The translations under genes were made by a program, and so were the position numbers. From positions 62,001-126,000 of the forward strand of contig NZ_JAOVZR010000003.1 in assembly GCF_026619415.1 (NCBI RefSeq): a DNA stretch of 64,000 bases, read 5' to 3'. The notes under the pieces are model-generated. The model saw nothing but the letters and a program-made list of their open reading frames with translations. It was not told the origin of the DNA and did no database searches. Source of the stretch: Hoeflea algicola (GTDB lineage: Bacteria; Pseudomonadota; Alphaproteobacteria; Rhizobiales; Rhizobiaceae). Shown here piece after piece: positions 1 through 15,906 of this stretch; position 1 is the stretch's first letter, and the number at the start of each line of letters is the position of its first letter.

Positions 1-526
1 AGGCGAGACCCTGACGGCGTACCTCGGCTTGCCCGGTAAAAAAAACGAGTACCTCGTTCAAACTCGCTCCTGCTGGCAAACGCGCAGGATCGTCAATGCT
101 GAGCGCCGCCGGCAATGCGGGCTCTGCGCGGCGTGCCTTCTGCGACGGATGAGCCTTTACGCAGCGGAAGTCGTTGAGCCCAATGACACCTATGTTATCG
201 CGGATCTCGCTGCCGTAGAGATTGAGGCAGCCCTTTCGAAGATCTCTGCAGAAGCCGATCGCGATATCATGATCGAATACGGGAGTGTTGGGGCTCGCCA
301 TCTACAACATCTTGCTGAGATGGCGGAACTGCCCGACATAGCATTGCGCCCGTTTGCCTCTCAGATTGCGGCGGCGACGGGAGAGGCTTATGAGCAGACC
401 CTTCGAAACTTGAGACTGATGTTAATGACGCATGCCAAAGAATGGCGGAGATTTTTGTCCGCGCAAGGTGATGGAAGCTTCCTAAGTAGTTGGCTGGACG
501 GAGGTCGCCATGACCGCTTTAAATGA
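1..526 (+). CDS. QueC-like (7-cyano-7-deazaguanine synthase fold) protein, 5' truncated by window edge
   Basis: The reading frame is open from base 2, so the N-terminal half lies outside the window. The visible part has the cysteine cluster CGLCAACLLRR, which matches the C-terminal zinc site (CxxCxxC) of QueC-family ATP-dependent ligases, preceded by a K-G-E-T-L segment also typical of that family. The C-terminal 100 residues are helical and differ from housekeeping QueC, as in QueC-like proteins of defence loci (for example QatC). It overlaps the next gene by 17 bp, so the two are probably translated together. Housekeeping QueC is less likely, because no queuosine gene is near and the flanks are defence genes. 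The ATP-binding motif cannot be checked here. Confidence 0.7.
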   Translation, partial: GETLTAYLGLPGKKNEYLVQTRSCWQTRRIVNAERRRQCGLCAACLLRRMSLYAAEVVEPNDTYVIADLAAVEIEAALSKISAEADRDIMIEYGSVGARHLQHLAEMAELPDIALRPFASQIAAATGEAYEQTLRNLRLMLMTHAKEWRRFLSAQGDGSFLSSWLDGGRHDRFK

Positions 527-1700
527 GCTAAGTGCGCAGGAAATCGGCCGACGGCTCCGGATCGCTCGCGAGAATGCCGACGTTCGCCAAGACGACGCCG
601 CACAATTCATTAGCGTCTCCCGCCCGACCCTTGTCTCGATCGAAAAGGGTGCACGACGGGTAAGGATTCAGGAGATCCAGACTTTGGCCCACCGATATGG
701 CGTATCGGTCAACGCTCTGTTGCGTCGCGAGGCTGTTCATACGGATCTGGTGCCACGATTTCGAAAGCTAAGGGAGACGGAAGACGAACATACGATCGAG
801 GCCGTCCGGCTCTTCAATGACCTGATCAAGGCCGATGTCGAACTGGAGAATATTCTCGGGATCCAACGCCGGTTTAACTATCCGCCTGAGCGAGGGCTTA
901 ACGAGGGCGACGCAGCAATGCTGGGCGAAGCTCATGCAAAGGAGCTTCGAGATTGGCTAGGGCTAGGGTCGGGTCCTATCGCCGATATTTTCTCCGTCAT
1001 TGAGCACGGGTTAGGAATTCGCCTCTACCAGCGGCGGCTGTCCTCGCGTTCACGGGTCGCGGGTCTCTTCACCTATGACGACAACGTTGGGGCGTGCATT
1101 CTGCTTAACGCGAACCATCCGCTCGCTCGACGAGTTCAGACCGCCGCGCACGAAACCGGCCACTTCTACGGGACGCGACGCATGCCGGAGGTCCTTGAGG
1201 AAGACGAGAAGTTTCTCTCGCGGGACGAGCGTTATGCAAATTCTTTCGGCCGCGCCCTCGTAACGCCGGCAGATAGTTTTGGCGAGAGCTACCGCCAGCT
1301 CAAGGAGATCACTGGCAAAACCACGCGTAGGCTCGTCATCCTCCTCGCCGACCAGTACGGCATCTCCCGCCAGGCCTGCGTTCTTCGCTTGGAAGAGCTG
1401 GGGCTTGTGAAAAAGGGAACTTGGTCGTGGTTCGAAAACAACGGCGGCATCTCGGATGACCACGCACGAGAAGTGCTTGGCAGCGCAGCCGATCGGCGCG
1501 ATGCCGGCAAGGCGGATGCAGATCGGCCGATCTCACACCGGATGAGCCTGATGGCCCACGCGGCATGGAAGCGCGAGCTGATGTCAGAGGGCCAGCTTTC
1601 GGAGCTGCTGAAGATCAGCAGGATTCAGCTGCGAGAGATCGTCGATCAGATTGAGCTTGAGGAAAAAGAGACGGATGACCTACTCAAGCATTCTGAGTGA
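510..1700 (+). CDS. XRE-family regulator fused to ImmA/IrrE metallopeptidase
   Basis: Residues ~10-65 form an XRE helix-turn-helix (QDDAAQFISVSRPTLVSIEKG). The middle carries an ImmA/IrrE zinc-peptidase domain with the HETGH metal motif near residue 215 and a downstream ER-YAN-FG segment that supplies the third ligand region. Such proteins (COG2856 type) bind DNA and cleave or sequester a partner repressor. A C-terminal ~100-residue extension with a second HTH-like stretch is longer than in minimal family members. ATG 510 has a GGAGG site just upstream. The gene overlaps the QueC-like gene and the PIN gene, giving a three-gene operon. I infer it is the regulator or antitoxin of this operon. 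Confidence 0.88.
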   Translation: MTALNELSAQEIGRRLRIARENADVRQDDAAQFISVSRPTLVSIEKGARRVRIQEIQTLAHRYGVSVNALLRREAVHTDLVPRFRKLRETEDEHTIEAVRLFNDLIKADVELENILGIQRRFNYPPERGLNEGDAAMLGEAHAKELRDWLGLGSGPIADIFSVIEHGLGIRLYQRRLSSRSRVAGLFTYDDNVGACILLNANHPLARRVQTAAHETGHFYGTRRMPEVLEEDEKFLSRDERYANSFGRALVTPADSFGESYRQLKEITGKTTRRLVILLADQYGISRQACVLRLEELGLVKKGTWSWFENNGGISDDHAREVLGSAADRRDAGKADADRPISHRMSLMAHAAWKRELMSEGQLSELLKISRIQLREIVDQIELEEKETDDLLKHSE

Positions 1701-2325
1701 GAACACCGCTGCATTGGCTCTTGATACGAGCGTGTTGATCAATCTGCACGCATGCCGGCGTGGCGTCGAGATTCTCGTCGCGATCCCCAATCGAATTCTC
1801 GTCCCGTACATCGTCGCCCGAGAACTCAATCACGAGACGAGCCGCCGAAACGGCGAGGAGGCATTTCTACAAGCACTGGCGGCGGCTGGAAACATCACCC
1901 TAGTCGATCTTTCGGAGGAGGAGTTCGAAATCTTCTTCAAGCTCACTTCCGCAGCGTCCTCTCTTGATGACGGTGAAGCCGCGGCGATCGCTATTTCCAG
2001 GGGACGAGGCCTTTTCCCGGTAATCGACGAGCGGCGAGGCCGCAGGCGAGCTAAGGAAATTATCGGGATCGAACCGGCATGGTCGCTCGACTTGCTGTCT
2101 CACCCGAATACGACGGCCAGCTTGGGGGCTAACTTTTCCGTGGACGCCCTCTTTTTGGCGCTGCGTGACGGGCGTATGCGTATTCCCCCTGAGAGTGCGT
2201 CCGAAGTCGTCGGGATTATTGGCGATGATCGTGCCAGACAATGCACTTGTCTACCGGGATACCGGCATCTATTCGGTGAAAAAAGCGAGCAGCACCGGGG
2301 ACGATTTGATCCGATGCTTTTCTAA
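1675..2325 (+). CDS. PIN-domain ribonuclease-like protein (DUF3368 type)
   Basis: It starts at ATG 1675, inside the end of the ImmA/IrrE gene (26-bp overlap); an upstream in-frame TTG at 1651 is less likely. LDTSVLINLH near the N terminus supplies the first PIN aspartate, ELNHE the acidic helix, and DDGEAAAIAISRG with VIDERRGRRRAKE the remaining acidic residues, as in PIN proteins of the DUF3368 group. XRE/ImmA plus PIN pairs are a known toxin-antitoxin-like arrangement. The C-terminal ~60 residues, including a cysteine pair, have no clear match. PIN nuclease activity is inferred from family motifs; the target RNA is unknown. Confidence 0.82.
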   Translation: MTYSSILSENTAALALDTSVLINLHACRRGVEILVAIPNRILVPYIVARELNHETSRRNGEEAFLQALAAAGNITLVDLSEEEFEIFFKLTSAASSLDDGEAAAIAISRGRGLFPVIDERRGRRRAKEIIGIEPAWSLDLLSHPNTTASLGANFSVDALFLALRDGRMRIPPESASEVVGIIGDDRARQCTCLPGYRHLFGEKSEQHRGRFDPMLF

Positions 2326-2400
2326 GTCGCACGACAAACAGATAGCCGCATAGCACTAACAACCTACTGGTTAAGGAGCTGCTGCGGCAGAAGTCTGGTG

Positions 2401-3831
2401 TTAAAGGCGAGCCATTTCGGTTTCGGCTGCCTCGCGGATAAACCTCTTCAGATCATCTGTATTTCGGACTTTCCGATCGTCATAATAGATCCGATGGATG
2501 TTGAAGGATGCGGCGCTTGCCACAACGGGAGAAATGGACGCGATGTCCAAGATCTGTCCGCCAACACTGACATTTATCTGCTGAGGATCGCCACCTACGA
2601 CACCCATCGGCTTATAAATGGGGCGATTGTAAGTGTCGTAGTAGCAGCCGTCGCTCCAAATTGACGTTTCCTTCTGGAGTCTTGCCGCAACAGCCTTGCA
2701 TACTGCTTCAATCCGCTCGACGCGAGTTTTCGCGGTGAGCTCGACGACCTCGGACCTCGAGGCGAGGATTTCATCGGCGACTTTCCAGATATCGATCATC
2801 GGTAGAATTCGGCGATCAGAGAGCCGCGTCGCGATATCCCTGACCGAGGCGTCACTTGCCTCTCGAAATTGATGGAGCGATCCCCAAAACAGTGTGTCGT
2901 CCAGCAGGCGCGCTTGATCGAGATTGCTTGGGTCGCGGAAAAATCGCACGAATGGGTGAGTATCCGAAAGGCCGGTGGCAGGCACATCACCTGCCGCAAT
3001 CAGCTCGAAAACCCTGCTTAGGAGCAGGGCGAACATGAACTCGAGCCCCCGGATCTTCTTGTGCAGGTATATTGTGGGATACAGCTGAAAGAGCGTCACT
3101 GTGAACTGTTCGAGCGAGATGTATGCCTTGCTATCGACGTATAGGAAACGCGCATCGCCGTTTTTTCCAACCTTGAGATTTCGCAGCAGCCAATCCAGAT
3201 CGATGCCGCCGGAAGACACGCCGGCGAAGTAGGCGTCGCGTTTGGCATAGTCAAGCCTGTCTGCATCCAGCTGACTTGAAACAACGGACGTGTAGATGCA
3301 GTTCTTGTCCGCTTTTTTGATAATGTCGCGGACCATGGCGGGGAATTCCGTGCCGCCAAAATTGACCAGTGCCTCGCCGATCGTAGAGTCAGTAATGATT
3401 TTTTGGGTGACCTTTTCGTGATCGACGGCGTCTTCGAGGCTTTCTCGTTTCCCTTCCTCGAGTTTATTGCGTGCAAGAAAGAATCCCATCGCTCTCTCAA
3501 AGGCGTGGCTGAACATACCATGACCCACGTCGTGCAGCAGCGCAGCGGCAAGGCATGCCTCCGCCTTTTGCGACCAATTCCCGCTTGATCCCTCGGGCTC
3601 GATGATCGTCAGCATTCGCTTAGCGATCTTGTAGACGCCGAGAGAATGGGCGAAGCGGGAATGGGCGGCGGAGGGGAAGACGTAGTCGGAAAAACCAAGT
3701 TGCTTGACACGGCGCAGGCGTTGAAAAAATGAGTCGGAAAGAAGGTTTTTGAGCTCGTTTTCGCGAGCCCCGTTGAAATCAATGAATCCGTGGATCGGAT
3801 CCTTAATAACCTTATTCAATATTTCCTGCAT
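2401..3831 (-). CDS. HD-domain phosphohydrolase (dNTPase/SAMHD1-like, COG1078)
   Basis: Start ATG 3831 has a strong GGGGGAAG site 4-5 bases upstream; a GTG at 3843 is possible. From ATG 3831 the protein is 476 residues. Family marks are the N-terminal KDPIHGFI, the R-FAHSLGVY histidine near residue 62, the HD pair in LLHDVGHGMFSHAFE (H100, D101), and SQLDADRLDYAKRDA further on. Relatives are dNTP triphosphohydrolases or nucleotide hydrolases. It is the last gene of a four-gene minus-strand run (radical SAM, exonuclease, kinase, HD), 54 bp after the kinase gene. HD dNTPases can limit phage replication by draining dNTPs; that role here is inference. Confidence 0.88.
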   Translation of the reverse strand: MQEILNKVIKDPIHGFIDFNGARENELKNLLSDSFFQRLRRVKQLGFSDYVFPSAAHSRFAHSLGVYKIAKRMLTIIEPEGSSGNWSQKAEACLAAALLHDVGHGMFSHAFERAMGFFLARNKLEEGKRESLEDAVDHEKVTQKIITDSTIGEALVNFGGTEFPAMVRDIIKKADKNCIYTSVVSSQLDADRLDYAKRDAYFAGVSSGGIDLDWLLRNLKVGKNGDARFLYVDSKAYISLEQFTVTLFQLYPTIYLHKKIRGLEFMFALLLSRVFELIAAGDVPATGLSDTHPFVRFFRDPSNLDQARLLDDTLFWGSLHQFREASDASVRDIATRLSDRRILPMIDIWKVADEILASRSEVVELTAKTRVERIEAVCKAVAARLQKETSIWSDGCYYDTYNRPIYKPMGVVGGDPQQINVSVGGQILDIASISPVVASAASFNIHRIYYDDRKVRNTDDLKRFIREAAETEMARL

Positions 3832-3885
3832 GTCTTCCCCCACTATGCTTCAATAATCGCGTAGATCGCGCGAGCGCTTCCCCGT

Positions 3886-4470
3886 CTATTTCGCCAAGTG
3901 TCTCCGGACCGTCTCCAAAACCTGACCCAGCACTTCGTCACCGTTGGAAGAAGTTAGGATTACAGGCTGCAGGGCAGCTTCCTCGGCGAGGGCGCGAATC
4001 TTCTCGCCGGCTGCAACCCGAAACTCATGGTTCTTGTCGCGCCCTTCGCCAAGACTGATTGCTGGGTCAAGCTTCGTCATCACGAGCACATCGTAATCTC
4101 CGGCATGGGCGACGGCGATCGAGCGAAGTTCGTCGAGCTGCCGGTCCGGCAACGATCGCCCTGAGATTTCAACAGCGGCATAGAGATAACCGAGTGCGTC
4201 AAGAACCGGCCGGTCGACAAGAATGACCTCGCTGGACAAAGCGGCCTCGGCCTCCTGCCTCATGCCTTCAGCCATGATCCAAAGGGTGCTTTCGAAATTA
4301 TGGTCAGTTAAAATCGGGAAGCCGCGGTCCCGAGCAGCTTTGGCAAGATCACCCACCCGACCAATCGCAACTCCTTCCGCGGAGAGAACGGAGTCTAATT
4401 GCTCAAGGAAGGTCGATTTCCCGGTTGAGTGCGTGCCGGCAATTCCGACTTTGACCTTCCTCATGCTCAT
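3886..4470 (-). CDS. P-loop nucleotide/nucleoside kinase-like ATPase (NadR-kinase/AAA_28 type)
   Basis: The gene starts at ATG 4470 after an AGGAGA site; the longer frame up to 4740 is only read-through over the exonuclease gene. It encodes 194 residues. The N terminus has a Walker A loop, GIAGTHSTGKSTF, followed by FESTLWIMAEG and VDRPVLDALGYLYAA. The latter has the D-R-P-x-x-D pattern of the ribosylnicotinamide-kinase/NadR-like P-loop group. A Lid-type arginine-rich stretch is not obvious. The start shares an ATGA overlap with the exonuclease stop, which implies translational coupling. The substrate cannot be told from sequence; a small nucleotide or nucleoside is most likely. Confidence 0.78.
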   Translation of the reverse strand: MSMRKVKVGIAGTHSTGKSTFLEQLDSVLSAEGVAIGRVGDLAKAARDRGFPILTDHNFESTLWIMAEGMRQEAEAALSSEVILVDRPVLDALGYLYAAVEISGRSLPDRQLDELRSIAVAHAGDYDVLVMTKLDPAISLGEGRDKNHEFRVAAGEKIRALAEEAALQPVILTSSNGDEVLGQVLETVRRHLAK

Positions 4471-5057
4471 AGAAAACTCTCCTGCGCCTTGAAAAGAATA
4501 TCTGCCTCGCGCGAGCGGAAATCGCGCCCTTCTCGATCCAGCGGAGCAAGCAAAGTCGTAAACAGAAGGGTGGTCAATGCGACATCGAACAGCGCCGAGT
4601 GGTGCTTCAGCCCTGTTTGGCGCTCCGCCTCGGCACTCAGGCCGAGAGTGGCACCGAGATTCTCCAAACTGTAGGAGTCGAGACCGGGGCGCATCGCTCG
4701 AGCGAGTTTGAGCGTGTCGATCGCTGCTGACGGTTTCCATTCTGGAATTTGTCTGCCGATGGCGTCGAGTTCGACGCGCACGTTGTGCCCGATGATTACA
4801 CTTCTATCGGTCCACCTCACGATGTCCTCGGCGATATCGTCGATGCTGGGGGCATCATCGACATCATCGTCTGTGATGCCGTGTATCCGTGTTACCGCCG
4901 CGCTGATCGGTCGCTCAGGCTTGACGAGCCAATGGAACGCGCGGCCACTCGGTTGCAAATCAACAACCTCCATTAAAGCGATCTCGACAATTTCAGGAGG
5001 TGTCGCACCGTTGCCTTCTACATCGACCACCCAAGCCTTTTCCCACATCATTCCCAT
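4467..5057 (-). CDS. DEDDh 3'-5' exonuclease (RNase T/DnaQ-like)
   Basis: Residues 10-15 give the ExoI motif VDVEG (D-x-E), followed by an HGITDDDV segment, ExoII in VIGHNVRVELDAI, and ExoIII in HHSALFDVALTTLL (H-x4-D). This is a complete DEDDh active site, so a 3'-5' exonuclease for single-stranded DNA or RNA ends is well supported. Start ATG 5057 has a GGAG 5 bases upstream; in-frame ATGs at 5051 and 5048 are alternatives. It overlaps the radical SAM gene upstream by about 10 bp and the kinase gene downstream by 4 bp. That tight packing makes joint function likely. Confidence 0.87.
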   Translation of the reverse strand: MGMMWEKAWVVDVEGNGATPPEIVEIALMEVVDLQPSGRAFHWLVKPERPISAAVTRIHGITDDDVDDAPSIDDIAEDIVRWTDRSVIIGHNVRVELDAIGRQIPEWKPSAAIDTLKLARAMRPGLDSYSLENLGATLGLSAEAERQTGLKHHSALFDVALTTLLFTTLLAPLDREGRDFRSREADILFKAQESFL

Positions 5058-6184
5058 CCGATCTCCGCTCGCCCGTGCCGATGCTTTCGATGAGGCTGTG
5101 CCCGATCATGCACTTGGAAGTTCAACGCGTGCTGCATGAAATAGCGCTGTGCCTCGGTGCTGCCATTGACTTCCACCCGGCGATCAGAAACCTCAATGCC
5201 ATCTAGGTCTACCAATGACACGACACGAGCGAGGCTCCGAACAGCTTCCAGATCAGGTTTACGGTGGCGCTTTTCGCAGATCTCACGCTGGGTCTTAGGA
5301 CAGATGTCGCAGATTTCGTTTATCCCGAAATGGCCGTTGAAATCTGCGATGCTGTGCGCGAAGGCGACCCCGCAAGACGTCTTGCGGAAAATCGGCCTCC
5401 CCTCGAAACACGCTAAAATCCGACCTTCGGCCTCTCGGGGCAGAATCTTCCGTCGCGCTATGTCCGCATAAAGGTCCGGCACCCCGGCTTCTCGAAAATA
5501 TGCCCGAATCTCCTCTCGATAGAAAAGTCCGGTGAAGACCGTGGCATCAGCGAATTCCGCAAGACGGCGCGCCGCCGCGAAGTGATCCGTCGTGTCGTTC
5601 AGGCCCGAGATAATTGGGCGCCAGTAGAGGATCTTCTTCACGCGCGAAGCCGAACTGGCCAGCACCTCCAAGCTCCTTGCGGCGATCCCAGACGAAACCG
5701 GCTCAATCCGCTCATCGTCAATTCCCGACCATGTTACCAAGATCGTCAGCTTCAGGTTCGTGAATTCCTCAAGTCGTTCGACGTCTGCCGGCTCAATTTT
5801 CCATCGGGTGATCACTAAGACGGGATTCCTGAAGCCGCGACTATCAAGAGCCTCGAGGGTTCTAAATAAATGCTTCTTAACGCCGGGAAGGAATGGGTCA
5901 GTCGCCCGGTTGAAGATCTGGATCGGAGTGGTGTGCGCGCGAAATGCCCAATGACTTATCAGTTCACCTACCGCAACCTCGTCGTTGACAATGAGATGAG
6001 GTCGTTTCATCGCGAAATTATCGAACAGGTGGCGCACGCAATAGCCACAATCAAGCGGACATCCGACGATGTGGTTTAGACTCAGGCCAGATTTTCGATA
6101 ATCGATGTAATTCCGCAGGCTTGAGGGCAGATCGTCTGGCGCACGGCGCACGGGCTTTGCATCCAAGATTTCAATTTTAACCAT
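5048..6184 (-). CDS. Radical SAM enzyme (spore-photoproduct-lyase-like)
   Basis: Cys42, Cys46 and Cys49 in GCPLDCGYC form the CxxxCxxC motif that binds the catalytic [4Fe-4S] cluster and S-adenosylmethionine. The next ~200 residues follow a partial TIM-barrel layout resembling SPL-like radical SAM proteins (TDPFLPG, VLVITRW). A C-terminal group of cysteines (CGVAF, CDICPKTQREIC) suggests a second cluster or zinc site. Start ATG 6184 follows GGGGAAC. It is the first gene of the four-gene operon and is divergent from the TIR-like gene. No viperin-type motif was seen. The substrate is unknown; nucleic acid or a nucleotide is plausible from the neighbours. Confidence 0.85.
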   Translation of the reverse strand: MVKIEILDAKPVRRAPDDLPSSLRNYIDYRKSGLSLNHIVGCPLDCGYCVRHLFDNFAMKRPHLIVNDEVAVGELISHWAFRAHTTPIQIFNRATDPFLPGVKKHLFRTLEALDSRGFRNPVLVITRWKIEPADVERLEEFTNLKLTILVTWSGIDDERIEPVSSGIAARSLEVLASSASRVKKILYWRPIISGLNDTTDHFAAARRLAEFADATVFTGLFYREEIRAYFREAGVPDLYADIARRKILPREAEGRILACFEGRPIFRKTSCGVAFAHSIADFNGHFGINEICDICPKTQREICEKRHRKPDLEAVRSLARVVSLVDLDGIEVSDRRVEVNGSTEAQRYFMQHALNFQVHDRAQPHRKHRHGRAEIGWE

Positions 6185-6367
6185 TTATAGTTCCCCGACC
6201 CACAACCTGACACTGAACGACCGCTGTGGAAAGTTCAAGAGTGCTGTTTGGGATTTGCCACTAGTGAACTTAACGCCGCGTCAAGCTTCTCTCGCACCAC
6301 CTTTTTATTGGGGATCACGGATCTGACACCTTCCGCAGGTTACGATTCTTGGTGATAGTGTCGAAAG
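6185..6367. promoter_or_regulatory. Divergent promoter region between radical SAM operon and TIR-like gene
   Basis: This 183-bp gap is the only space from which both the leftward four-gene operon and the rightward TIR-like/Shedu genes can be started. I see no convincing -10/-35 pair or long dyad by eye, so promoters are placed here only by gene layout. Confidence 0.4.
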
Positions 6368-7630
6368 ATGCAACCGATTCATCTTTTTTACTCTTGGCAA
6401 AGCGACCGCGGCAGCAAGGTGTGTCGGAATTTCATTCGCCACGCGCTTGAGGCAGCCATCGCGAACCTGAAAGGTGCCCACGGTATCGAGATTTATCTCG
6501 ACTCGGATACGTCCGGTGTGCCGGGTACTCCCCATGTCAGTGACACGATCCTGCGCAAAATTCGGGAATGCGATATCTTCCTCGGGGACGTCACATTCGT
6601 CGGTTCCACGCCGAACGGGAAAAAAATGGCGAATCCGAATGTAATGATCGAGTTCGGCTACGCACGGGGCGTCCTCACAGACAGGCAAATTCTGCTCTTG
6701 ATGAACACAGCTTTCGGCCCAGCCCAGGAACTTCCCTTCGACCTGGCGCATTTGCGCCATCCGACGCAATATTCTGTTCAAGAGGGTGCAAGTGATGGCG
6801 TCCGTCGCGGACAACGCACCAAGCTCGCGGAGATACTAACCCACCACCTCAAGGCAATCGTGGACGATGTCCTGGCAACAAGGGCGTCCCGCAAGCCGAG
6901 CGCAGATACTATTGCTCCCGCCCATGCCGTCGTCACTAGCCTTATCCAAATGAGTAACCGTGGAGAGACGCCGGCCATCGTCCCAGGCCCACGCCTGGTC
7001 GTGAAACTCGTGACAGCGGAAGCCGCGACTACGGCCTCGGTTACTCCCGGATCGATAAGTTCAATACGAGCGAAATTCATTCCCGCTCGCTACAGCGAGA
7101 GCACGGCTGAAACCAATTCGAGGGAATGGTCTGAGTTCGATCCGCCTCGCTTCGTTCAAGGGAAGCCAAATCCGGAATCGCGATGGTACCTTCGCGTTCT
7201 ACGCTCGGGAGCAATAGACGCGGCAATCACGGTTGGGGAGCGGATCGATGATGACAAGGACATCTTGGTCGACATCGAATCACTGGAGGCCCGAGTTGTG
7301 GAGATGGCCAAACGGATGGGAGAGATAGCCTCCGCAGTCGGCGACGGCGGACCCTTGGTTATCCACGCGGCTCTCGAAGGATTGGAGGATGTTCGGTTGG
7401 GTGCCCAGCACAAATCTAGCAAGCGGCTGGGCGCTCCTTTCGTCCATCTCGGAACCGTCGATATGCCTTCAGCATGTTCAATATCGATCGAAAGTTTGCG
7501 ACAGATGCTTGATGCCATATGGCTGGCGGCCGGTTTCCCTAATGGGTCACCACTCTACGGTGATGGCATTACTGACGATCTGCGAGAAAAAATGCTTGTT
7601 GCACCAGAAGTCATTTCCGGACGAGCTTGA
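6368..7630 (+). CDS. TIR-like domain protein, probable defence effector
   Basis: The first ~150 residues have the pattern of defence-associated TIR-like/nucleotide-binding domains. They show HLFYSWQSDRGSK at the first strand, DSDTSGVPGTPHVSDTI, a CDIFLGDVTFVG strand, then NPNVMIEFGYARG. The glutamate in the last motif (~E95) is where the NADase glutamate of TIR proteins sits. An LPFDL motif follows. The C-terminal ~250 residues are unrecognised and may sense the trigger. The protein has 420 residues and no membrane segment. The disrupted Shedu gene starts 12 bp downstream in the same direction, so the two were probably one operon. NAD-cleaving activity is inferred, not shown. Confidence 0.68.
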   Translation: MQPIHLFYSWQSDRGSKVCRNFIRHALEAAIANLKGAHGIEIYLDSDTSGVPGTPHVSDTILRKIRECDIFLGDVTFVGSTPNGKKMANPNVMIEFGYARGVLTDRQILLLMNTAFGPAQELPFDLAHLRHPTQYSVQEGASDGVRRGQRTKLAEILTHHLKAIVDDVLATRASRKPSADTIAPAHAVVTSLIQMSNRGETPAIVPGPRLVVKLVTAEAATTASVTPGSISSIRAKFIPARYSESTAETNSREWSEFDPPRFVQGKPNPESRWYLRVLRSGAIDAAITVGERIDDDKDILVDIESLEARVVEMAKRMGEIASAVGDGGPLVIHAALEGLEDVRLGAQHKSSKRLGAPFVHLGTVDMPSACSISIESLRQMLDAIWLAAGFPNGSPLYGDGITDDLREKMLVAPEVISGRA

Positions 7631-7642
7631 CGTTAAGGCCGC

Positions 7643-8264
7643 TTGATCAGTTCACGTCAATATCGTCACGCAACCATTTCAACAATGCGGCGGTCCGCTC
7701 TCAATGCGAACGCCTGGAGAAATAAAAGGGATGACGACGTGCTGACCACTGGGCGAACCTATAGACTGGAAAGCGGACCCAAAGCTCTGACTTGGGACCG
7801 CTATAGCGAGCTGGTGCAGCGCGATTGGCGTGAGCTGCTCAACGCGGCGGATGATCACGACGAGGCAGTTTTTCAGAGGTTTCTTGAAACCCATCCTTGC
7901 ATGGTTCCCGGTGGCCAAAGTATGTCAGGGCCATCAGGCCACAGCGCGTTTCCCGCGGCACTGATCACGCAACCATCCTTGCCGGGCTTTAACGAGCACA
8001 TCCCAGACTTTCTATGGATCGCCACCGACAGTCTGCACATCTATGCGGTTCTGATTGAAATCGAGGCCCCGAAGAAGAGGATGTTTACCAAAGGCGGCCA
8101 GCCTACCGCGCAGTTCACGCAAGCACAGACTCAAATCGCCCGCTGGAAAAGCTGGCTCGGCGAACCTGCAAACCAGACATTGTTCTGCAACCACTATCTG
8201 ATGGATGCGTTGCCGCGCTGGCGTACATTCATCCCGCAATATGTCCTCATCTACGGTCGCCGGT
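7643..8264 (+). pseudogene. sduA: Shedu nuclease SduA (DUF4263), 5' part, cut by IS21
   Basis: The fragment encodes FLETHPCMVPGG, then PDFLWIATDSLHIYAVLIEIEAPKKRMF, the PD-(D/E)xK core of DUF4263 (IPDF, then the E-x-E and KK pair), and a QIARWKSWL helix. The frame is cut after YGRR by the left end of the IS21 element. Removing 8265-10741 (the IS plus one copy of the 7-bp duplication) rejoins it in frame to 10742-11091, giving one uninterrupted ORF of about 323 residues from TTG 7643. ATG 7685 and GTG 7739 (with AAAAGGGA upstream) are other possible starts. In the present state the reading frame gains only one residue before a stop. Confidence 0.85.
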
Positions 8265-8376
8265 TGTGAACAGGCATGCAATTTTGACCCCGTAGCGGGG
8301 TGATCGGCGTCCAAAAATGACCCCTTTACACTGGTGTGGATAATGCCCCCGAGGCTATCGGGGAGCACAGTGCGGG

Positions 8377-9945
8377 ATGTTGGTTGTGGAGACGATTGCG
8401 AAGATCCGGCGGGCGTATTTTCAGGACAAGAAGCCGATCAAGCAGATCTGCCGGGAGATCCGAGTTTCGCGGAACACGGTGCGCAAGGTGATTCGGTCAG
8501 GTGCGACCGAGCACACCTACGAGCGGACGGTTCAACCGCAGCCCAAGATCGGCCGCTGGAAAGACAAGCTCGACGAGATGCTGGCAGTGAACGCGCGCAA
8601 GCCCAATCGCGAGAGGCTGACCCGGGTCAGGATCTTCGAGGAACTCAGAGCCCTCGGATATGACGGCGGCTACGATGCTGTCCGTCGCTACGCGGCCTCA
8701 TGGTCCAAGGAGGAACAGGAGGCATCGGCCACTGCCTATGTGCCGCTGACCTTCGATCCCGGTGAGGCCTATCAGTTTGACTGGAGTCATGAGATCGTGG
8801 TGATCGATGGCGCGACGACGACAGTGAAGGTGGCGCACGTCCGCCTTTGCCACAGCCGGATGCTGTTCGTGCGAGCCTACCCGCGCGAGACACAGGAGAT
8901 GGTCTTCGATGCCCACGACAAGGCCTTTGTCTTCTTCGGCGGGGCCTGCACGCGGGGGATCTATGACAATATGAAGACGGCGGTAGATACGATCTTCGTG
9001 GGCCGCGACCGGGCCTACAATCGCCGGTTCCAGCAGATGTGCGGGCATTATCTTGTCGACCCCGTTGCCTGCACACCGGCGTCTGGCTGGGAGAAGGGGC
9101 AGGTCGAGAACCAGGTCGGCGTTGTCCGGCGACGCTTCTTCGTGCCCAGACCCAAGTTCAAGAGCTACGCCGAACTCAACGCCTGGCTCGAGGATCGCTG
9201 CGTTGCCTGGGCCAAGTCCCATCCGCACCAGGAGCTCCGGGATCGAACGATCTGGGAAGTATTCCAAGACGAGCGCTCGAGCCTGGTGCCTTACGTCGGC
9301 CCATTCGACGGCTTCCACGCCGTGCCTGCGTCGGTCTCGAAGACCTGCCTCGTCCGCTTCGACAAGAACCGCTACTCCGTGGATGGACGCGCCGTCGGTC
9401 GGCCCGTCGAGATCCGCGCCTATGCCGAGCGGGTCGAGTTCTGGCAGGACGGCAAGATCGTGGGGCAGCACGCCCGAGCCTTCGGGCGCGACAAGGCCAT
9501 CTACGACCCGCTGCATTATATCCCGGTGCTGGCCCGAAAGCCCGGGGCGCTCAGGAATGGCGCTCCCTTCAAGGATTGGGAACTGCCGCCAGCGATCAGG
9601 CGGATGCAGCGCAAGCTCGGCAAGGTGCCGAATGGCGACCGGCAAATGGTCCAGATCCTGAGCATGATCCCAACCGATGGGCTGGATGCAGTGGAGGCTG
9701 CCTGTGCCGAAGCGCTGAACGAAGGAGCTCCCGCCGCCTCGGTCGTCATCAATATCCTGGCCCGACATCGTGAGCCGCCGCCACCGCTGACCATAGATAC
9801 GCCCGAAGCGCTGCGGCTGACCTGCGAGCCCGTGGCCGACTGCAAACGCTATGACAGTCTAAGGAGACCCAACCATGGAAAGATCACAGGTGCTGGACGC
9901 GATGAGCCAGCTGAAGCTCTACGGGATGAAGGCCGCTTACGATGA
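8377..9945 (+). CDS. istA: IS21-family transposase IstA
   Basis: The protein has 522 residues. The N-terminal HTH ([24 protein letters not shown]) is typical of IstA. The rve-type DDE catalytic core shows the first Asp in YQFDWSHE, the second in YDNMKTAVD and the Glu in [14 protein letters not shown]-terminal Mu-like beta-barrel region follows ([25 protein letters not shown]). It overlaps istB by 71 bp, consistent with coupled expression in this family. It is the catalytic transposase of the element that disrupted sduA. Confidence 0.95.
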
Positions 9946-10603
9946 GATCATAACCACAGCGGTGAAGCGCCAGCACGAACCGCAACAGATCGTCGGCGAC
10001 CTGCTGAACGCCGAGATCAGCGAGAAGCAGGCGCGCTCGATCAAATACCAGATGACGATTGCCAAGCTGCCACTGGCCAAAGAGGTCGATGAGTTCAGCT
10101 TCGAGAACACGCCGATCAACGAGATGCTGGTGCGCGATCTGGCCTCCGGGGAGTTCCTTGAGCATCAACGCAACGTCGTGCTGATCGGCGGCACCGGGAC
10201 CGGCAAATCCCATCTTGCCGTGAGCATCGCCAGGGCCTGCATCCGCCGTGGCAAGCGCGGCCGCTTCTTCAACGTCGTCGACCTCGTGAACAAACTCGAC
10301 GCCGAAGCCCGCGCTGATCGCCAGGGGCGCACTGCGGATCTCTTGTGCCGCCTCGACTTCCTGATCCTCGACGAGCTCGGCTATCTCCCCTTCGCCCAGA
10401 CCGGCGGCCAGCTGCTGTTCCACCTCGTCAGTCGCCTCTACGAGCGTACGTCCATCATTGTGACGACCAACCTCGACTTCGGTGAATGGCCATCGGTCTT
10501 CGGAGACGCCAAAATGACCGCAGCGCTACTCGATCGCCTTACCCACCACTGCGACATCGTCGAAACCGGCAACGAGAGCTGGCGCTTCAAGACCAGGGAG
10601 TAA
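9875..10603 (+). CDS. istB: IS21-family helper ATPase IstB
   Basis: ATG 9875 follows AAGGAGA. The 242-residue AAA+ protein has Walker [12 protein letters not shown], Walker [13 protein letters not shown] and the sensor motif [12 protein letters not shown], all standard for IstB, which loads and activates IstA at target DNA. An N-terminal helical domain ([12 protein letters not shown]) precedes the ATPase core. It appears full length and intact. Its start lies within the 3' end of istA. Confidence 0.95.
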
Positions 10604-10741
10604 CCCAGGCCCCGCTGGCCCGACGCGGCTGCGCTGTGTGATGGCTACGCCGCATCGGGCCAGCTACCCCTGCGCAAAATAAGGGGGTCATTTTTGGGGG
10701 CCGATAGGGGGTCAGAATTGCATGCCGATTGACACGCCGGT

Positions 10742-11091
10742 CTGAAATCGAAGGGAACGCTCAACTTAATCGGCTTCGAGCGAAGCTCAGCCGGGATGGC
10801 GAGCACTACATGACGTTCGATCGGCTGCACCCGATAAAGGACCATGATCAATACATGACCGCGAAGTTTCGGTCCGGTCGCTACGAAGCCGTGGCCATGC
10901 CCGCAACACTGGAGATGGGTCCGCTCTGGGCGCAAAATCGGTCGAAGATTGAAGGCAAAGATCTCGTCGTGGATAGGACGCCCTATATGGTGGATGACCG
11001 GAAGGAATTCGTCAAAGCGCGTTTGGGCTACTGGGACAAATGGGCGGCCGACGGTCGGACCGGGTTGATGGGTATCGGCGACGCTGAGTAA
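10742..11091 (+). pseudogene. sduA: Shedu nuclease SduA (DUF4263), 3' part
   Basis: This is the remainder of the Shedu protein, in the frame SEIEGNAQLNRLRAKLSRDG, running to a TAA at 11091. It directly continues YGRR at 8264 once the IS21 element and one duplication copy are removed. The region includes the C-terminal helices and beta strands of DUF4263 (MTFDRLHPIKDHDQYMT). No ribosome-binding site precedes it, so it is not expected to be translated alone. Its unbroken frame suggests the disruption is recent. Confidence 0.85.
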
Positions 11092-11109
11092 CGTGAGTTC
11101 GCGAAAATA

Positions 11110-11145
11110 GGGCCGCTAGATGTGAGCGGCCCCATCTTCATTTTC
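11110..11145 (+). terminator. Rho-independent-type terminator after the TIR/Shedu genes
   Basis: GGGCCGCT (11110-11117) pairs perfectly with AGCGGCCC (11125-11132), with a 7-base loop, followed by a T-rich stretch (CATCTTCATTTT). It lies 19 bp after the sduA stop. From here to the HEPN/Toprim stop at 11387 I see no gene. Confidence 0.65.
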
Positions 11146-11386
11146 GACGAAAGTTAATATCTATCGGATTCCCGATATTAGTCATGCATCGTGACCGGCC
11201 GCACCCGAAGCCATATCCCCCTCTGGCTTTCCGAAGGCTGTCGCCAGGCTCGCGCCTTTGGCGCGACGGCGTTAAGAACGGGCAAGATGATAACGCTGCT
11301 ACGAATCATCTTCAGGCGTTCAGCGCTCCAACCCAACTCTAGGAGCGACAAAATTCACCCGAGCTACAGCTGCAATATCGTTGCAA

Positions 11387-12706
11387 TCAGCGCAGGCGCC
11401 TTGCTTGCGTTGATGCGGCCGCTTCCGACGCTATTGCGACGCATGCGCCAACCAAGACATCGAGTACCTTCTCCAACTTTATAAAGTCGTAAGCGCCGCG
11501 TCGATCTTGCGTACCTCGGTGTCTGAGGAAGTCGTTCATGAACTGTGTTTTCCCTTTTAGACTTCCCTGGTACGACCCGACTATGTCGTTAAAGCCGCCC
11601 CATTGGACAACCACATCTGGAAGTCCTCGTCGGGACAGATCCAGGTAGCATTCGAGTGACGCTGCTCGTCGATTAATATCGCCCATCGCTGGACCGGTCG
11701 GCCCCGTGGTAGGAAATCTTGAGAATTCATCGAGATCGGGGAGGATGCATACGCGATAGCTTGCGGGCAGCTTGAGCGCATTTGTTTTGCCGTAAGCTGC
11801 GAAACCTTCTGCATCATTATCGTAGATGGCCACCACATTTAACGGTACCCTCATGGCCGCTAAACCCTGCATGAACTTAAGGAGCTGGCCTGTACCGGAA
11901 AACGGATAGCCTTCTTCCATGTCTATGTAGCGGAAAAAGTCGGCGATCTGCGGACGAAGCAGGCTGATTGCATGCCGAAGCATCGCCGCATCAGACCCGC
12001 CTTCAGTCACAATCAAGAAGCAATCCTGATCGCGGCGTGAGCAGGTGAACTCCTCCTCCCTTGCATAACCGTTGGACACGAGGGGGCCATAGTCCCAAGT
12101 CACGAGAGAGCTCAGGTTTCGTGGATTTTCAGCGAGCAAGCGCATCACAGTATAGGGGTGGAATCCGCCTAGAGCATACTCGGCACTGGTGCTCTGCGAA
12201 AAAACGGTATCCGGCTCATATGACCGCCTGGCATAGTCCCAGGCATCGTACCAGGGCAGGCGCTCCATAAGTTCTTGGGGCAGTATCCTGATTGGCTTTT
12301 CGTCGTCCTCCTCTATCGAGGTCGACAAGGCGCTCGGATCGAGTCTAGCCGCTATCTCGAGTATCTCATCGAAAGAAAAGAAGTTGAAGCTGGGCTCCGG
12401 CTCGTCGGCATCTTTGGCATCTTTGGCATCTTTGGCATATTCTACCTTGCGCCGCATGTTGATGTCGACAGCACTCTCGTACTCTTGTCGAGCCACGCTC
12501 AGCGTATGGCCGAGCATCTCAAGCCGAGGCAGCACGTCCGATAGCGTTGTTTGAAAGCCGTTCGGGCACTCGTATGCATAATCCTGGTCGCGTTGGATCG
12601 CCTTTCGATCCTTTTCGTGAAACAGGCGACCGTGATCGATGCCGGGATCGTTCTTCGAACCAATCAGCTCCATTTTTCCGATATCGAGGGTGATGTAAGT
12701 TCCCAT
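11387..12706 (-). CDS. HEPN/Toprim-associated protein
   Basis: The N terminus (MGTYITLDIGKMELIGSKN) matches the HEPN/Toprim N-terminal domain. Residues ~225-330 form a Toprim-like fold with LIVTEGGSDAAMLRHAI (the acidic E motif) and VVAIYDNDAEGFAAYG (the D-x-D motif). Such proteins occur in defence islands and are thought to act on nucleic acid. An acidic lysine-rich linker (KDAKDAKDADE) is encoded by a three-fold 9-bp repeat. Start ATG 12706 follows AGGAGTAA. It is the last gene of the minus-strand ABC-3C run, 54 bp after the DUF2326 stop, so it may be a fourth component or an add-on effector. Confidence 0.82.
   Translation of the reverse strand: MGTYITLDIGKMELIGSKNDPGIDHGRLFHEKDRKAIQRDQDYAYECPNGFQTTLSDVLPRLEMLGHTLSVARQEYESAVDINMRRKVEYAKDAKDAKDADEPEPSFNFFSFDEILEIAARLDPSALSTSIEEDDEKPIRILPQELMERLPWYDAWDYARRSYEPDTVFSQSTSAEYALGGFHPYTVMRLLAENPRNLSSLVTWDYGPLVSNGYAREEEFTCSRRDQDCFLIVTEGGSDAAMLRHAISLLRPQIADFFRYIDMEEGYPFSGTGQLLKFMQGLAAMRVPLNVVAIYDNDAEGFAAYGKTNALKLPASYRVCILPDLDEFSRFPTTGPTGPAMGDINRRAASLECYLDLSRRGLPDVVVQWGGFNDIVGSYQGSLKGKTQFMNDFLRHRGTQDRRGAYDFIKLEKVLDVLVGACVAIASEAAASTQARRLR
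12409..12435. repeat. Three tandem copies of CATCTTTGG within the HEPN/Toprim gene
   Basis: Three identical 9-bp units lie head to tail and encode repeated Ala-Lys-Asp on the minus strand. Copy-number change would keep the frame, so this is a simple in-frame slippage site in a linker. Confidence 0.9.
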
Positions 12707-12760
12707 TGGAGATTACTCCTCGCCACTTCGGCTCCGCTGCGATCGTCAGTGATATCGAAG

Positions 12761-14569
12761 TCAGAATTCGGCCATCTTGAACAGCCGGCCAGCTTGTCCG
12801 CTATCGTCCAGTCGGAGGATTGTCTCGTCATCTCCGAAGGCAACGAGCTTACCCTTGGAATCGCGCGGTAGATCAGACGCGATGACTGTCATGATATACT
12901 GAAGCTTTCGGTGGCTGACCTGCTCGCGGACAACATCGAGGAAGGCAAGCTTCTTTCGATCGTCGAGAGCTTCGAACATTCCGTCGTGATACACGAAATG
13001 AAAGAACGGAATGTCCTCATAGACGCGCAATAGTGCCAAGTCGAACAGAGCGCAAATCAGCTTCTTGTAGCTGGTTCCCTCGCCCTGGCTCGATGCAACA
13101 CCCTTCTGACCGGCGAGACCCAGGCTGATCTTGTAGTCTAGATTGTTGTTCGAATTAACCTGAAAGAAGAAAAGTCCCTCGTGGTTGAGGACTTTTTGGC
13201 AATAGTCGTTGAAGATACGCGTGAAGCGTTCATATATGATGGTTGGCTTGGCAAGCATAGTCTTTATTTCGTCAACCACACGCCCGCGGTCACGTTCTGC
13301 TTCACGAACCTGCCGAGCGGTTTCCACGACCGCCTCAAGTTTCTTGCGCTGTTCGCCGAGGTAAACAAGCTGCGCCCGTTGCTCGGTGACATCCTTCTGC
13401 AAGGCTTTGAACTTGTCGAAAGTATCGGTCGAGCGGAGCACTTTCAGACGTTGGGCGCGTTGAGCGTCAAGTGAAGCCTTGCGACCTTCAGCGGCCGAGA
13501 GCTCATCCTCCAGTTCCTTGCGACGCTTGCGCAGGGCCGCATTGCGCTCCTGCGTGACCTTCTTCTTGAACTCGACCAGTTCGCTATATTGCTTTTTCAG
13601 CTGCGTCGGGAAATGGAGCTTTGCATCGTCGAAGATCGATTGCACATCTTCCAGATCGAACTTGTCCTTGTGGCTGAGAGAACTGTCGATCTGGCCAATG
13701 TCGTATCGAGCATCATAGATCTGCTGGTTCAGGCTCGCGATCTCGGTCTCAATGGTCTCCACCAAATCGCGTATGAGGCGGCGCTCTTCGTCATCGAAGC
13801 GGAAAGCATCGAGTTGTTCCTCAAGATCCTCGACGTGTTGTTGGAGCACACCGAGTTCGGCCGTCAACTTGGGCAGATCCTCTTCCCTGAACTGGACCTC
13901 CGCCTGTTGTTCCCCCTGCTTCTCCTGAAGCTTCTGGATGAGTTCGTCGAGCTCGTACTTCCTGACGATAGGTTTTTGGTTGAAGCCAAACAGATGGGCG
14001 ACAAACGGCTTCCAGTGAAGGTCGCGCCCGGCCTGAAACTTTTGCAGTTGCAGTTCATCACTCCAATCGCCTTGCGATCGCAAGAAATACGTGATTGCCT
14101 TCCTATAATCGTATGGTTTTAACGCTCTGAGATCGAGCCAAGCGTCAAGAAGCTTGATGGCCTCATCAATCGGCAGATCGGGGTGATCCCATACGTCGTC
14201 GGCTGTCGCGCTGAAATCTGCATCGGGGTCTTCGTGACGGGACAGGGCGATCCGGGTCGGAGCGACGACGCTACGCCGTATTGTGGCGTAGCCGCCACTG
14301 TTCAAGGCGATCTCAAGAAAGAAAACGAAATCGGAAAAGCGGTCACGATGCCTATGGAGAAAGCTCTCCTGCGACCATCCCTTAAGCATCATGAAGTCGA
14401 TGACGTGCAGGAGTGTCGTCTTGCCGAGATTATGCGAGTCTTTTCTGCGATCTTTAGGATGCTTGACCTCACCGAGCACCACATTCAGGCGATTGGCATC
14501 GGCTCCGTGATTGAAAACGACCGGCGAAAGGATATCTGGAAGGTTGGAGTATAGGCGGCTGAGCTGCAT
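12761..14569 (-). CDS. DUF2326 SMC-like ATPase of ABC-three-component (ABC-3C) system
   Basis: The protein has 602 residues. The N-terminal half-ATPase has a Walker A-like SHNLGKTTLLHVIDFM. A long coiled coil spans ~residues 205-420, rich in E/K/Q heptads (EKQGEQQAEVQFREEDLPKL). The C-terminal half has a GLAGQKGVASSQGEGTSYKKL signature-type loop and FHFVYHDGMFE in place of Walker B, the form seen in DUF2326 proteins. DUF2326 ATPases partner with a small middle component and an effector in ABC-3C conflict systems. Both partners are encoded just upstream on the same strand. It probably acts as sensor or motor for the nuclease effector. Confidence 0.88.
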   Translation of the reverse strand: MQLSRLYSNLPDILSPVVFNHGADANRLNVVLGEVKHPKDRRKDSHNLGKTTLLHVIDFMMLKGWSQESFLHRHRDRFSDFVFFLEIALNSGGYATIRRSVVAPTRIALSRHEDPDADFSATADDVWDHPDLPIDEAIKLLDAWLDLRALKPYDYRKAITYFLRSQGDWSDELQLQKFQAGRDLHWKPFVAHLFGFNQKPIVRKYELDELIQKLQEKQGEQQAEVQFREEDLPKLTAELGVLQQHVEDLEEQLDAFRFDDEERRLIRDLVETIETEIASLNQQIYDARYDIGQIDSSLSHKDKFDLEDVQSIFDDAKLHFPTQLKKQYSELVEFKKKVTQERNAALRKRRKELEDELSAAEGRKASLDAQRAQRLKVLRSTDTFDKFKALQKDVTEQRAQLVYLGEQRKKLEAVVETARQVREAERDRGRVVDEIKTMLAKPTIIYERFTRIFNDYCQKVLNHEGLFFFQVNSNNNLDYKISLGLAGQKGVASSQGEGTSYKKLICALFDLALLRVYEDIPFFHFVYHDGMFEALDDRKKLAFLDVVREQVSHRKLQYIMTVIASDLPRDSKGKLVAFGDDETILRLDDSGQAGRLFKMAEF

Positions 14570-14571
14570 GG

Positions 14572-14823
14572 TCAGTCAGTCCCCTTATATTCGAGCGTAT
14601 CGTTCTTGAGGTGATACTCGGCCTTGCCCAGGAGGAACAGGAGGTCGAGGGCGGGCAGGAAGGAAAGCTCGCCATCGGCGCCCACCCGTCGGATCACGAC
14701 GCCGCGCAACTTCTCAAATTCACAGACGCCTCGCTTCTGAAGCTCTTTGAGGACGAGCGAAAATACGCGCAGCAATGAAGTGTCCAGGTTGAGATGTTTC
14801 TTAGGCGTCAGCGTGGACGACAT
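14572..14823 (-). CDS. ABC-3C system middle component (small)
   Basis: An 83-residue protein lies between the DUF2326 ATPase gene (2 bp away) and the effector gene (23-bp overlap). It has two winged-helix-like segments (LLRVFSLVLKELQKRG, and EKLRGVVIRRVG) and the LPALDLLFLLGKAEYH motif typical of ABC-3C middle components. Middle components are thought to link the ATPase to the effector, as kleisin/kite-like adaptors do in SMC complexes. The assignment rests on position and this motif; it is too short for stronger claims. Confidence 0.8.
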   Translation of the reverse strand: MSSTLTPKKHLNLDTSLLRVFSLVLKELQKRGVCEFEKLRGVVIRRVGADGELSFLPALDLLFLLGKAEYHLKNDTLEYKGTD

Positions 14824-15772
14824 CTTCGTTCTCCTCCAGCTGTTTTATGCCAATATCGCAATTGAAATACATATAGTGCAGCAGGATGGAAATCAGGCGG
14901 CGCTTACCCCGCAGGGCTTCACGCTTCTCCTGGATCTGTTCGTACATGAACACGAAGATGTCATCGAACGCTCCGAACTGCGCGCGCTTGGCGATGATCT
15001 TTTGCTTAAGCTCATCGGCAGCATCATGATAGAGCGCCGCGAATTCTTCGTTTCTCGGATTCTGGAGGAACTGGGCGACGCGATCAAAATGCGGCATAGA
15101 TTGAGCGACGATCACCTGCTTGTAGTATTCGTCAGAGACGCCGTTGAGCTTGTTTTTCAGCGGCATCTTGAGCTTTTCGAAATCGAGCGCGCTGTCAAAC
15201 GCGCTGGCAGGGTCGTCCTTGGTATAGGCGTGGAGCGCTCCGATCACTTCCACCAGTTCGTCCGGGTTGAAGCGGAAAGGCGATGAGTCGAGCCAATTGG
15301 GCAAGGTTTCTCGGATGTTCGCGTAATCGTCGAGCGCAATGTGGAGACGTTCAACGCCGATAATGTGCGCGGAGTTGATCCCGAGTCCCAAGAGGTCCTT
15401 CATGAACTTTTCGTCAGCACCGCCCGTATATTTCCGGTTGGCGAAAACGAGATAGTGGTCGCAAATCCCATCGCCGTTCAGCCGCTTGATCTTGCCGTGC
15501 TCTTTCCCGAGCAGACCGGCGAAATCGGGGTCGGAACACGATCTGTTTGGCGCGCTGATGTGCTTTGCCTGAAGGACAAAATGTCCGGACAACGGCGATG
15601 CTGCGCTCGGAAACGCGTTCGCAGTGCCGTGGAACTTTCCATCGCGGCCACCGTCCCGTCCGCGAGCGAATGGGGTCACACCCTCGCCTAACCAGCGCAC
15701 ACAAATGCGAACGACGAGCTTTTCAAACTCATCTTCATTTAGCTCGTGCAGTCTGTAATCGCGAGGCAGCAT
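14801..15772 (-). CDS. ABC-3C system effector: Mrr/PD-(D/E)xK nuclease domain plus ABC-3C C-terminal domain
   Basis: I chose ATG 15772 because the family N terminus (LHELNEDEFEKLVVRIC) begins right after it; the frame is open to 15883. The nuclease core shows FEKLV (Glu), GRDGGRDGKF (catalytic Asp) and FVLQAKH (Q-x-K), the Mrr-like restriction fold. The C-terminal ~200 residues are helical (the ABC-3C CTD) and are expected to dock on the middle component. The gene heads the run effector, middle component, DUF2326, HEPN/Toprim. It begins only ~135 bp inside the junction with the broken DUF1612 gene, so its promoter must be in that short space. Confidence 0.86.
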   Translation of the reverse strand: MLPRDYRLHELNEDEFEKLVVRICVRWLGEGVTPFARGRDGGRDGKFHGTANAFPSAASPLSGHFVLQAKHISAPNRSCSDPDFAGLLGKEHGKIKRLNGDGICDHYLVFANRKYTGGADEKFMKDLLGLGINSAHIIGVERLHIALDDYANIRETLPNWLDSSPFRFNPDELVEVIGALHAYTKDDPASAFDSALDFEKLKMPLKNKLNGVSDEYYKQVIVAQSMPHFDRVAQFLQNPRNEEFAALYHDAADELKQKIIAKRAQFGAFDDIFVFMYEQIQEKREALRGKRRLISILLHYMYFNCDIGIKQLEENEDVVHADA

Positions 15773-15906
15773 GAGATCAGCATTGCAAACAAAAGTTGAA
15801 CATAACTCTAATGGATTTGGAGTATCTGAGGCCAATTGCGTTTGCAACGCCTGGAGACATCGATCGGCAAAATCGCTGGCCATCCAGTTTGCAGCGGGAA
15901 CTGTAG

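Follow-up and report, generated by a model that had tools for sequence, protein, structure and literature searches.

The window, a stretch of 64,000 nucleotides from Hoeflea algicola (contig NZ_JAOVZR010000003.1, positions 62,001 to 126,000), carries four minus-strand open reading frames (ORFs) at positions 2401-6184. They encode, in this order, a radical S-adenosylmethionine (radical SAM, rSAM) protein, an exonuclease, a P-loop kinase, and an HD-domain protein. The first three form a conserved core that is found with swappable partners in unrelated bacteria and that, as judged from the sequences and from published parallels, is most likely a nucleotide-analogue defence module.

5048..6184, minus strand: radical SAM (rSAM) protein, core gene 1, 378 aa
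4467..5057, minus strand: DEDDh-type (DnaQ-like) 3'-5' exonuclease, core gene 2, 196 aa
3886..4470, minus strand: P-loop nucleoside/nucleotide kinase, core gene 3, 194 aa, with its start at an ATG within a longer ORF
2401..3843, minus strand: SAMHD1-like HD-domain phosphohydrolase, clade-specific add-on, 480 aa

The rSAM and exonuclease ORFs overlapped by 10 bp and the exonuclease and kinase ORFs by 4 bp, with a 42-bp gap separating the kinase ORF from the HD ORF. These coordinates bore out the compact four-gene operon of an earlier note on this DNA (the original prediction). The H100/D101 numbering used there for the HD protein follows from an in-frame ATG at 3831; counted from 3843, the residues are H104/D105.

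The conserved three-gene core

Thirty-five loci were collected by the rSAM protein alone: ten from species genomes, 15 from the 36 matching plasmid records, nine of ten IMG/VR loci, and the window. The 21 plasmid records outside the set consisted of eight near-copies, one Roseibium algicola record (90% match), and 12 that were partial or 22-25% identical. The tenth IMG/VR locus (L037, 27% identical), in which no exonuclease or kinase was found, was left out of the count, and L011 and L027 both correspond to the locus in the window. Gene presence was called by phmmer at E 1e-5. The exonuclease was present in 34/35 loci and the kinase in 33/35, on the same strand and in the same order. The genes were therefore adjacent in other genomes too, a point on which the original prediction had turned. 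The conserved unit is the three-gene core (rSAM, exonuclease, and kinase) and not the four-gene set it had put forward: the core three recur together, and the 9/35 loci with the HD gene belong to a single clade of the rSAM tree (single origin, support 100/98). Named hosts comprised Alphaproteobacteria, one Pantoea (Gammaproteobacteria), Actinomycetota, and one Nostoc (Cyanobacteria), and further loci lay on contigs of the viral collection IMG/VR. In a Nocardia plasmid record (L017:8521-10107) the rSAM frame was interrupted, with two hypothetical proteins under the match, which is a sequencing error or a pseudogene. This rSAM gene counts as present among the 35 but does not enter the tree, the distances computed for rSAM, or the residue counts for that protein.

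Pairwise distances of the three core proteins correlated with one another (r = 0.93, 0.90, and 0.94 over 32, 31, and 31 loci), and 0 of 2000 permutations gave correlations as high. In a separate check, 15 contigs longer than 5 kb (matched by size) were common to the rSAM and kinase homologues, versus 0.09 expected by jitter; 120 homologues were listed per protein (89 distinct rSAM and 66 kinase entries), and one shared contig was the window's own. The module looks rare and patchy. At least 2304 relatives of the rSAM protein were present in the protein database at E 0.001. When 398 genomes were drawn evenly across the phylum and 297 across the family, the window's own genome was the only match; these counts are lower bounds because few candidates are scored for each genome in the first pass. 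A search of E. coli genomes with the core genes of Pantoea gave no match. IMG/VR yielded no locus with the single rSAM protein as query and ten loci with the alignment as query.

The C42xxxC46xxC49 motif of the rSAM protein was invariant in 34/34 sequences, as were four more cysteines (C271, C292, C295, and C303), pointing to a possible second cluster or metal site. The protein matched no Pfam family at E 0.1; Radical_SAM itself scored E 0.21, and 29/35 members of the alignment (A3) matched that family with E values no higher than 0.5. The protein matched a phage protein family (PHROGs) whose function is unknown at 2.5e-5, and zero PADLOC families, pVip models included, at E 0.1. The exonuclease matched Pfam RNase_T (3.6e-20), phrog_192 (1.2e-33), the generic PADLOC DEDDh model (9.8e-30), and the candidate model PDC-S48 over the shared domain (1.9e-19), with dnaQ_proteo at 1.7e-23, below that model's cut-off. 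Among its 34 sequences, E14, H91, H153, and D158 were invariant and D12 was kept in 33/34, with one gap. The kinase matched Pfam AAA_28 (4.1e-9) and, over residues 3-192, the thymidylate kinase family phrog_2107 (7.5e-9); its only PADLOC match was Csx3 at 0.033. Walker A (G, GK) and DR were invariant in 33/33 kinase sequences.

Exchangeable partners and defence-rich surroundings

The HD protein matched Pfam HD at 1.1e-10 and, weakly, the PADLOC dGTPase model at 1.9e-6. Its closest PDB entry was 2o6i (1.5e-45 over residues 9-348), with SAMHD1 chains from 1.6e-19, and H66, H104, D105, and D195, which make up the H..HD..D metal site, were invariant in 9/9 sequences. By these matches it is SAMHD1-like and a predicted deoxynucleoside triphosphatase (dNTPase). 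In plasmid records, all 12 that carried an HD homologue at >=60% identity and >=80% coverage had it about 1.2 kb past the end of the rSAM gene, a spacing taken from match coordinates, with the annotation seen in four. As seven of the 12 were Labrenzia/Roseibium and three were Rhizobium near-copies, they represent four lineages. The other 28 HD plasmid matches were <=35% identical, except for two, at 42-46%, that covered just 22-23% of the query. The HD protein as a universal effector was rejected, since its restriction to nine loci of one clade means that it is not a general one.

Two other kinds of partner were found, neither of them together with HD in these loci. An aldo/keto reductase was present in 18/35 loci, an opposite-strand match in L023 being left out of the count. 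A protein of about 188 aa (L024:12078-12644 and relatives) lay 3' of the reductase in 9/35 loci and matched no Pfam, NCBIfam, or PHROGs family. A thymidylate-synthase-like (MilA-type) gene and a nucleoside-diphosphate kinase (NDK) gene were present in 14/35 loci. In L018 the thymidylate-synthase-like protein was closest to MilA (1.2e-73; the best-scoring thymidylate synthase chain reached 1.3e-12), and the actinobacterial partner as a canonical thymidylate synthase was rejected. MilA is the cytidine monophosphate (CMP) 5-hydroxymethylase of mildiomycin, in which, according to excerpts of PMC5175136, Asp186 is linked to cytosine substrates and Lys133 and Ala176 to ribose. The catalytic Cys155, Asp186, and Lys133 were kept in 14/14 of the MilA-type partners and Ala176 in 12/14, and Tyr218, which contacts the 2'-hydroxyl in MilA, was replaced in 14/14. 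This pattern of residues points to an actinobacterial form acting on cytidylate. The hydroxymethylase and the NDK of these relatives gave substance to the nucleotide chemistry that had been proposed for the operon.

We examined the genes flanking the core in seven alphaproteobacterial plasmid loci. The flank sample comprised 91/109 annotated genes, with the core, HD, and reductase genes excluded and cut genes and some edge genes left out; for the control, one 20-kb stretch far from the locus was taken on each of these seven plasmids, giving 99/133 genes. At E 1e-15, the 91 flank proteins matched 164 PADLOC families and the 99 control proteins matched one, mad3, in three proteins. The 164 families are not a count of systems because many PADLOC models describe one protein, and the control stretches include catabolic and transfer regions, so the contrast may be flattered. 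The 25 flank families listed include GajA, GajB, SduA, dGTPase, IetA, LmuB, ThsB, and RmrA, together with a CBASS cyclase, E1-E2, and phospholipase; the defence models around the module thus span Gabija, CBASS, Shedu, and a ThsB-type TIR. Annotations place a CBASS-like operon immediately upstream of the module in L025 and an ATPase-helicase pair in L021, the latter probably the GajA/GajB matches. In the alphaproteobacterial plasmids examined, the core is strongly tied to defence genes, and the enrichment agreed with the defence island that the original prediction had seen in the window.

The core is also mobile: its carriers are plasmids, a contig bearing Mu-like phage genes, and an island in which a partial integrase gene occurs with an AlpA regulator. 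The last of these is the Pantoea locus, in which both genes precede the core. In L028, SIR2 and HerA genes (PADLOC 7.9e-94 and 5.2e-177) stand immediately before the core and Mu-type F and portal genes on its far side. The module there therefore looks like cargo of a Mu-like phage or prophage.

Proposed function and its alternatives

We consider the chances about even that the locus is a mobile module that acts inside the cell against phage by means of a modified nucleotide. The defence role is drawn from the neighbourhood and the mobile carriers, and the chemistry would run as follows. The rSAM enzyme would alter a nucleotide, probably a pyrimidine (cytidine). The P-loop kinase would phosphorylate the substrate or the product, which NDK or the host would carry on to the triphosphate, and the analogue would stall synthesis of the phage genome or transcripts. 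The DnaQ-like exonuclease could trim the analogue off host 3' ends, and, in the HD clade, the SAMHD1-like protein could destroy the analogue triphosphate or thin the deoxynucleoside triphosphate (dNTP) pool. Where present, the optional hydroxymethylase or reductase may tailor the analogue. Each of these proposed roles has a published parallel: the viperin-kinase pair, ThmC, and nsp14. PADLOC model names include kinase-linked and kinase-fused viperins, a precedent for pairing rSAM with a kinase. In the excerpted text of PMC12691670, the NTPase ThmC of the thmA-C cluster alone protects E. coli from 4'-thiothymidine. The abstract of PMC9415739 describes how nsp14, a viral proofreading exonuclease, excises the viperin product ddhCMP.

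Several observations weigh against this anti-phage reading. The defence enrichment comes from only seven alphaproteobacterial plasmids with one control stretch each, and no match was found in 50,697 phage records. The Nostoc locus (L016) was without an exonuclease, and no kinase was detectable in L035 and L036. Besides being confined to one clade, HD followed the rSAM protein more loosely than the core proteins followed each other (r = 0.56, n = 8, 28/2000 permutations as high). The MilA-type gene is absent from the window, and the cytidine guess for the window is therefore by transfer. At exonuclease motif II (position 96, placed by the HNxxx[DE] pattern), Glu was present in 21/34 sequences, the window included, and Asp in 13/34, and D98 was not conserved; Glu96 could slow or alter the activity. 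The catalytic motifs had been described as complete. Those of the rSAM, kinase, and HD proteins were intact, and the description was slightly overstated for the exonuclease because of this Glu. A phage origin of the module was rejected, given the 0 matches in the 50,697 phage records; in IMG/VR, loci were found with the alignment and not with the single protein.

Viperin provides the best-known case of immunity via a made-to-order chain terminator. Viperin (pVip) loci resemble the module in that they have a radical SAM enzyme with a CxxxCxxC motif, frequently adjoined by a nucleotide kinase, and lie in defence settings. The motif is common to other radical SAM families, however, and the window module adds an exonuclease and a dNTPase-like HD protein. 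Profile comparison with three viperins gave a probability of 2.6% for the rSAM protein, and comparison of the kinases gave 4.7%, whereas a viperin-kinase pair used as positive control (L077) scored 3.9e-128 against PADLOC pVip. Membership of the rSAM protein in the viperin family was rejected on these values and on the lack of a pVip match at E 0.1. By description only, the module also resembles thmA-C of Photorhabdus asymbiotica, in which a radical SAM enzyme, a nucleoside kinase, and an NTPase share one small operon (PMC12691670); an exonuclease is not described for that cluster in the excerpts of the article. ThmB is there an AbmG homologue, labelled deoxycytidine-kinase-like (excerpts of PMC12691670 and PMC9032320), and so of dNK type by literature label, whereas the window kinase is AAA_28 and matched no dNK family of Pfam at E 0.1. 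A PF01712 search for Thm-type genes gave matches in 126/394 genomes at E 0.001, and none of the module genes were seen in the 20 regions inspected. These regions instead showed viperin-kinase pairs: in L074, L075, and L077, viperin-like radical SAM genes lay near dNK-type kinase genes, and PADLOC confirmed two of the three as pVip. In L072 (2812-4634), a radical SAM-like protein of 415 aa, perhaps of B12 type as judged by eye, overlapped a thymidylate-kinase-like gene, possibly another nucleotide pair.

The remaining likenesses were partial. The actinobacterial relatives share a MilA-type CMP 5-hydroxymethylase with mildiomycin biosynthesis, unlike the window. With its HD motif and its 340-residue match to 2o6i, which we take to be the EF1143 family, the window HD protein resembles SAMHD1/EF1143-type dNTPases. 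It differs from the dGTPase CloA of Clover in showing weak dGTPase-model matches only and in being tied to the rSAM core in all of the 12 plasmid records closest to it; Clover pairs CloA with the nucleotidyltransferase CloB, and no nucleotidyltransferase family was found in the eight proteins scanned (510-8269). No named defence or metabolic system with the gene make-up of the module was found in PADLOC or the searched literature (subscription literature and most preprints being outside it), in keeping with the original prediction, which had not recognised one.

The strongest competing reading is that of a nucleoside-antibiotic cluster, in which the product of rSAM and kinase would be exported to poison rival bacteria and HD and exonuclease would confer self-resistance, making the locus a bacteriocin-like plasmid trait. 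In its favour, excerpts of PMC12691670 describe thmA-C (radical SAM, nucleoside kinase, NTPase) as making 4'-thiothymidine in E. coli with ThmC alone as resistance. Moreover, the MilA-type partner of the relatives belongs to a nucleoside-antibiotic enzyme family, and actinobacterial loci have genes annotated 'natural product biosynthesis' upstream. However, the alphaproteobacterial plasmid flanks hold defence and not biosynthetic genes, and the L028 core adjoins SIR2-HerA in a Mu-like setting. No recurring exporter gene was seen in the tabulated loci either, a weak point since only listed families were looked for. On balance we regard an antibiotic cluster as unlikely.

A set of hydroxymethylase, kinase, and NDK is of the type that phages use for modified dNTPs. 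The likeness of the actinobacterial set to these raises a second alternative, in which the products would serve to mark the host's DNA or RNA or to hypermodify it, in the manner of phage thymidine hypermodification, with HD removing the ordinary precursor; methyltransferase-like genes in the flanks (L022 by annotation, and L029) would fit. Lys133 (14/14) and Ala176 (12/14) in the MilA-type proteins nevertheless favour ribo- over deoxyribonucleotides, the window clade is without the hydroxymethylase, and the module has no recurrent restriction partner, which leaves nucleic-acid modification improbable. Least probable of all is a DNA-repair cassette with an rSAM enzyme reversing a base lesion like spore photoproduct lyase and an assisting exonuclease: many relatives carry the JGI label 'DNA repair photolyase' and the distant L037 weakly matches several radical SAM families, presumably kin of photoproduct lyase, but the label is automatic and kinase, NDK, CMP hydroxymethylase, reductase, and dNTPase would be left unexplained.

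Returning to the anti-phage module, a more specific version of it is tentative, and we lean against it. In this version, a second, non-viperin radical SAM family would make an antiviral nucleotide and come packaged with its antidotes. The DnaQ-like exonuclease would proofread the analogue out of host 3' ends, the swappable partners (SAMHD1-like dNTPase, reductase, CMP hydroxymethylase plus NDK) would rid the pool of the analogue or give rise to variants of it, and clades may make different ones. If true, nucleotide-analogue immunity would appear to have arisen more than once, a built-in proofreading exonuclease would explain how the cell survives its own poison, and the family would be a source of new nucleosides active against viruses or bacteria. 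The link to MilA suggests CMP or hydroxymethyl-CMP as a concrete first candidate substrate.

Neighbouring genes in the window

The module is bordered by the following genes.

510..1700, plus strand: XRE/IrrE-like regulator, convergent neighbour (Peptidase_M78 3.2e-12, HTH_31 3.8e-10)
1675..2325, plus strand: PIN-domain protein, convergent neighbour (PIN 5.6e-5)
6368..7630, plus strand: weakly TIR-like divergent neighbour outside the module, 420 aa (CAP12-PCTIR_TIR E 0.0073, below cut-off)
7643..8269, plus strand: Shedu-like SduA gene, truncated by an IS21-type element (Pfam SduA_C 4.3e-14, PADLOC SduA 1.9e-77)

The 6368..7630 protein matched no PADLOC model at 1e-8. The XRE/IrrE-like and PIN genes (510-2325) form a toxin-antitoxin-like pair that also adjoins the core in L001, L002, and L012. 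The last of these loci, on Sinorhizobium chiapasense plasmid pB, was 94% identical to the window over 1-8264 and 86% over 10735-15851. The alignment breaks at 8264 and resumes at 10735, and between these positions an IS21-type element (istA/istB-like ORFs, 8377-10603) splits the Shedu-like gene; the S. chiapasense copy of that gene has no insert. By synteny with the L012 annotation (86% identity), positions 11387-15883 of the window hold a HEPN/Toprim-associated protein and an ABC-three-component system. In L012 (17661-19043), a gene annotated as 7-cyano-7-deazaguanine synthase overlaps the XRE gene next to the module.

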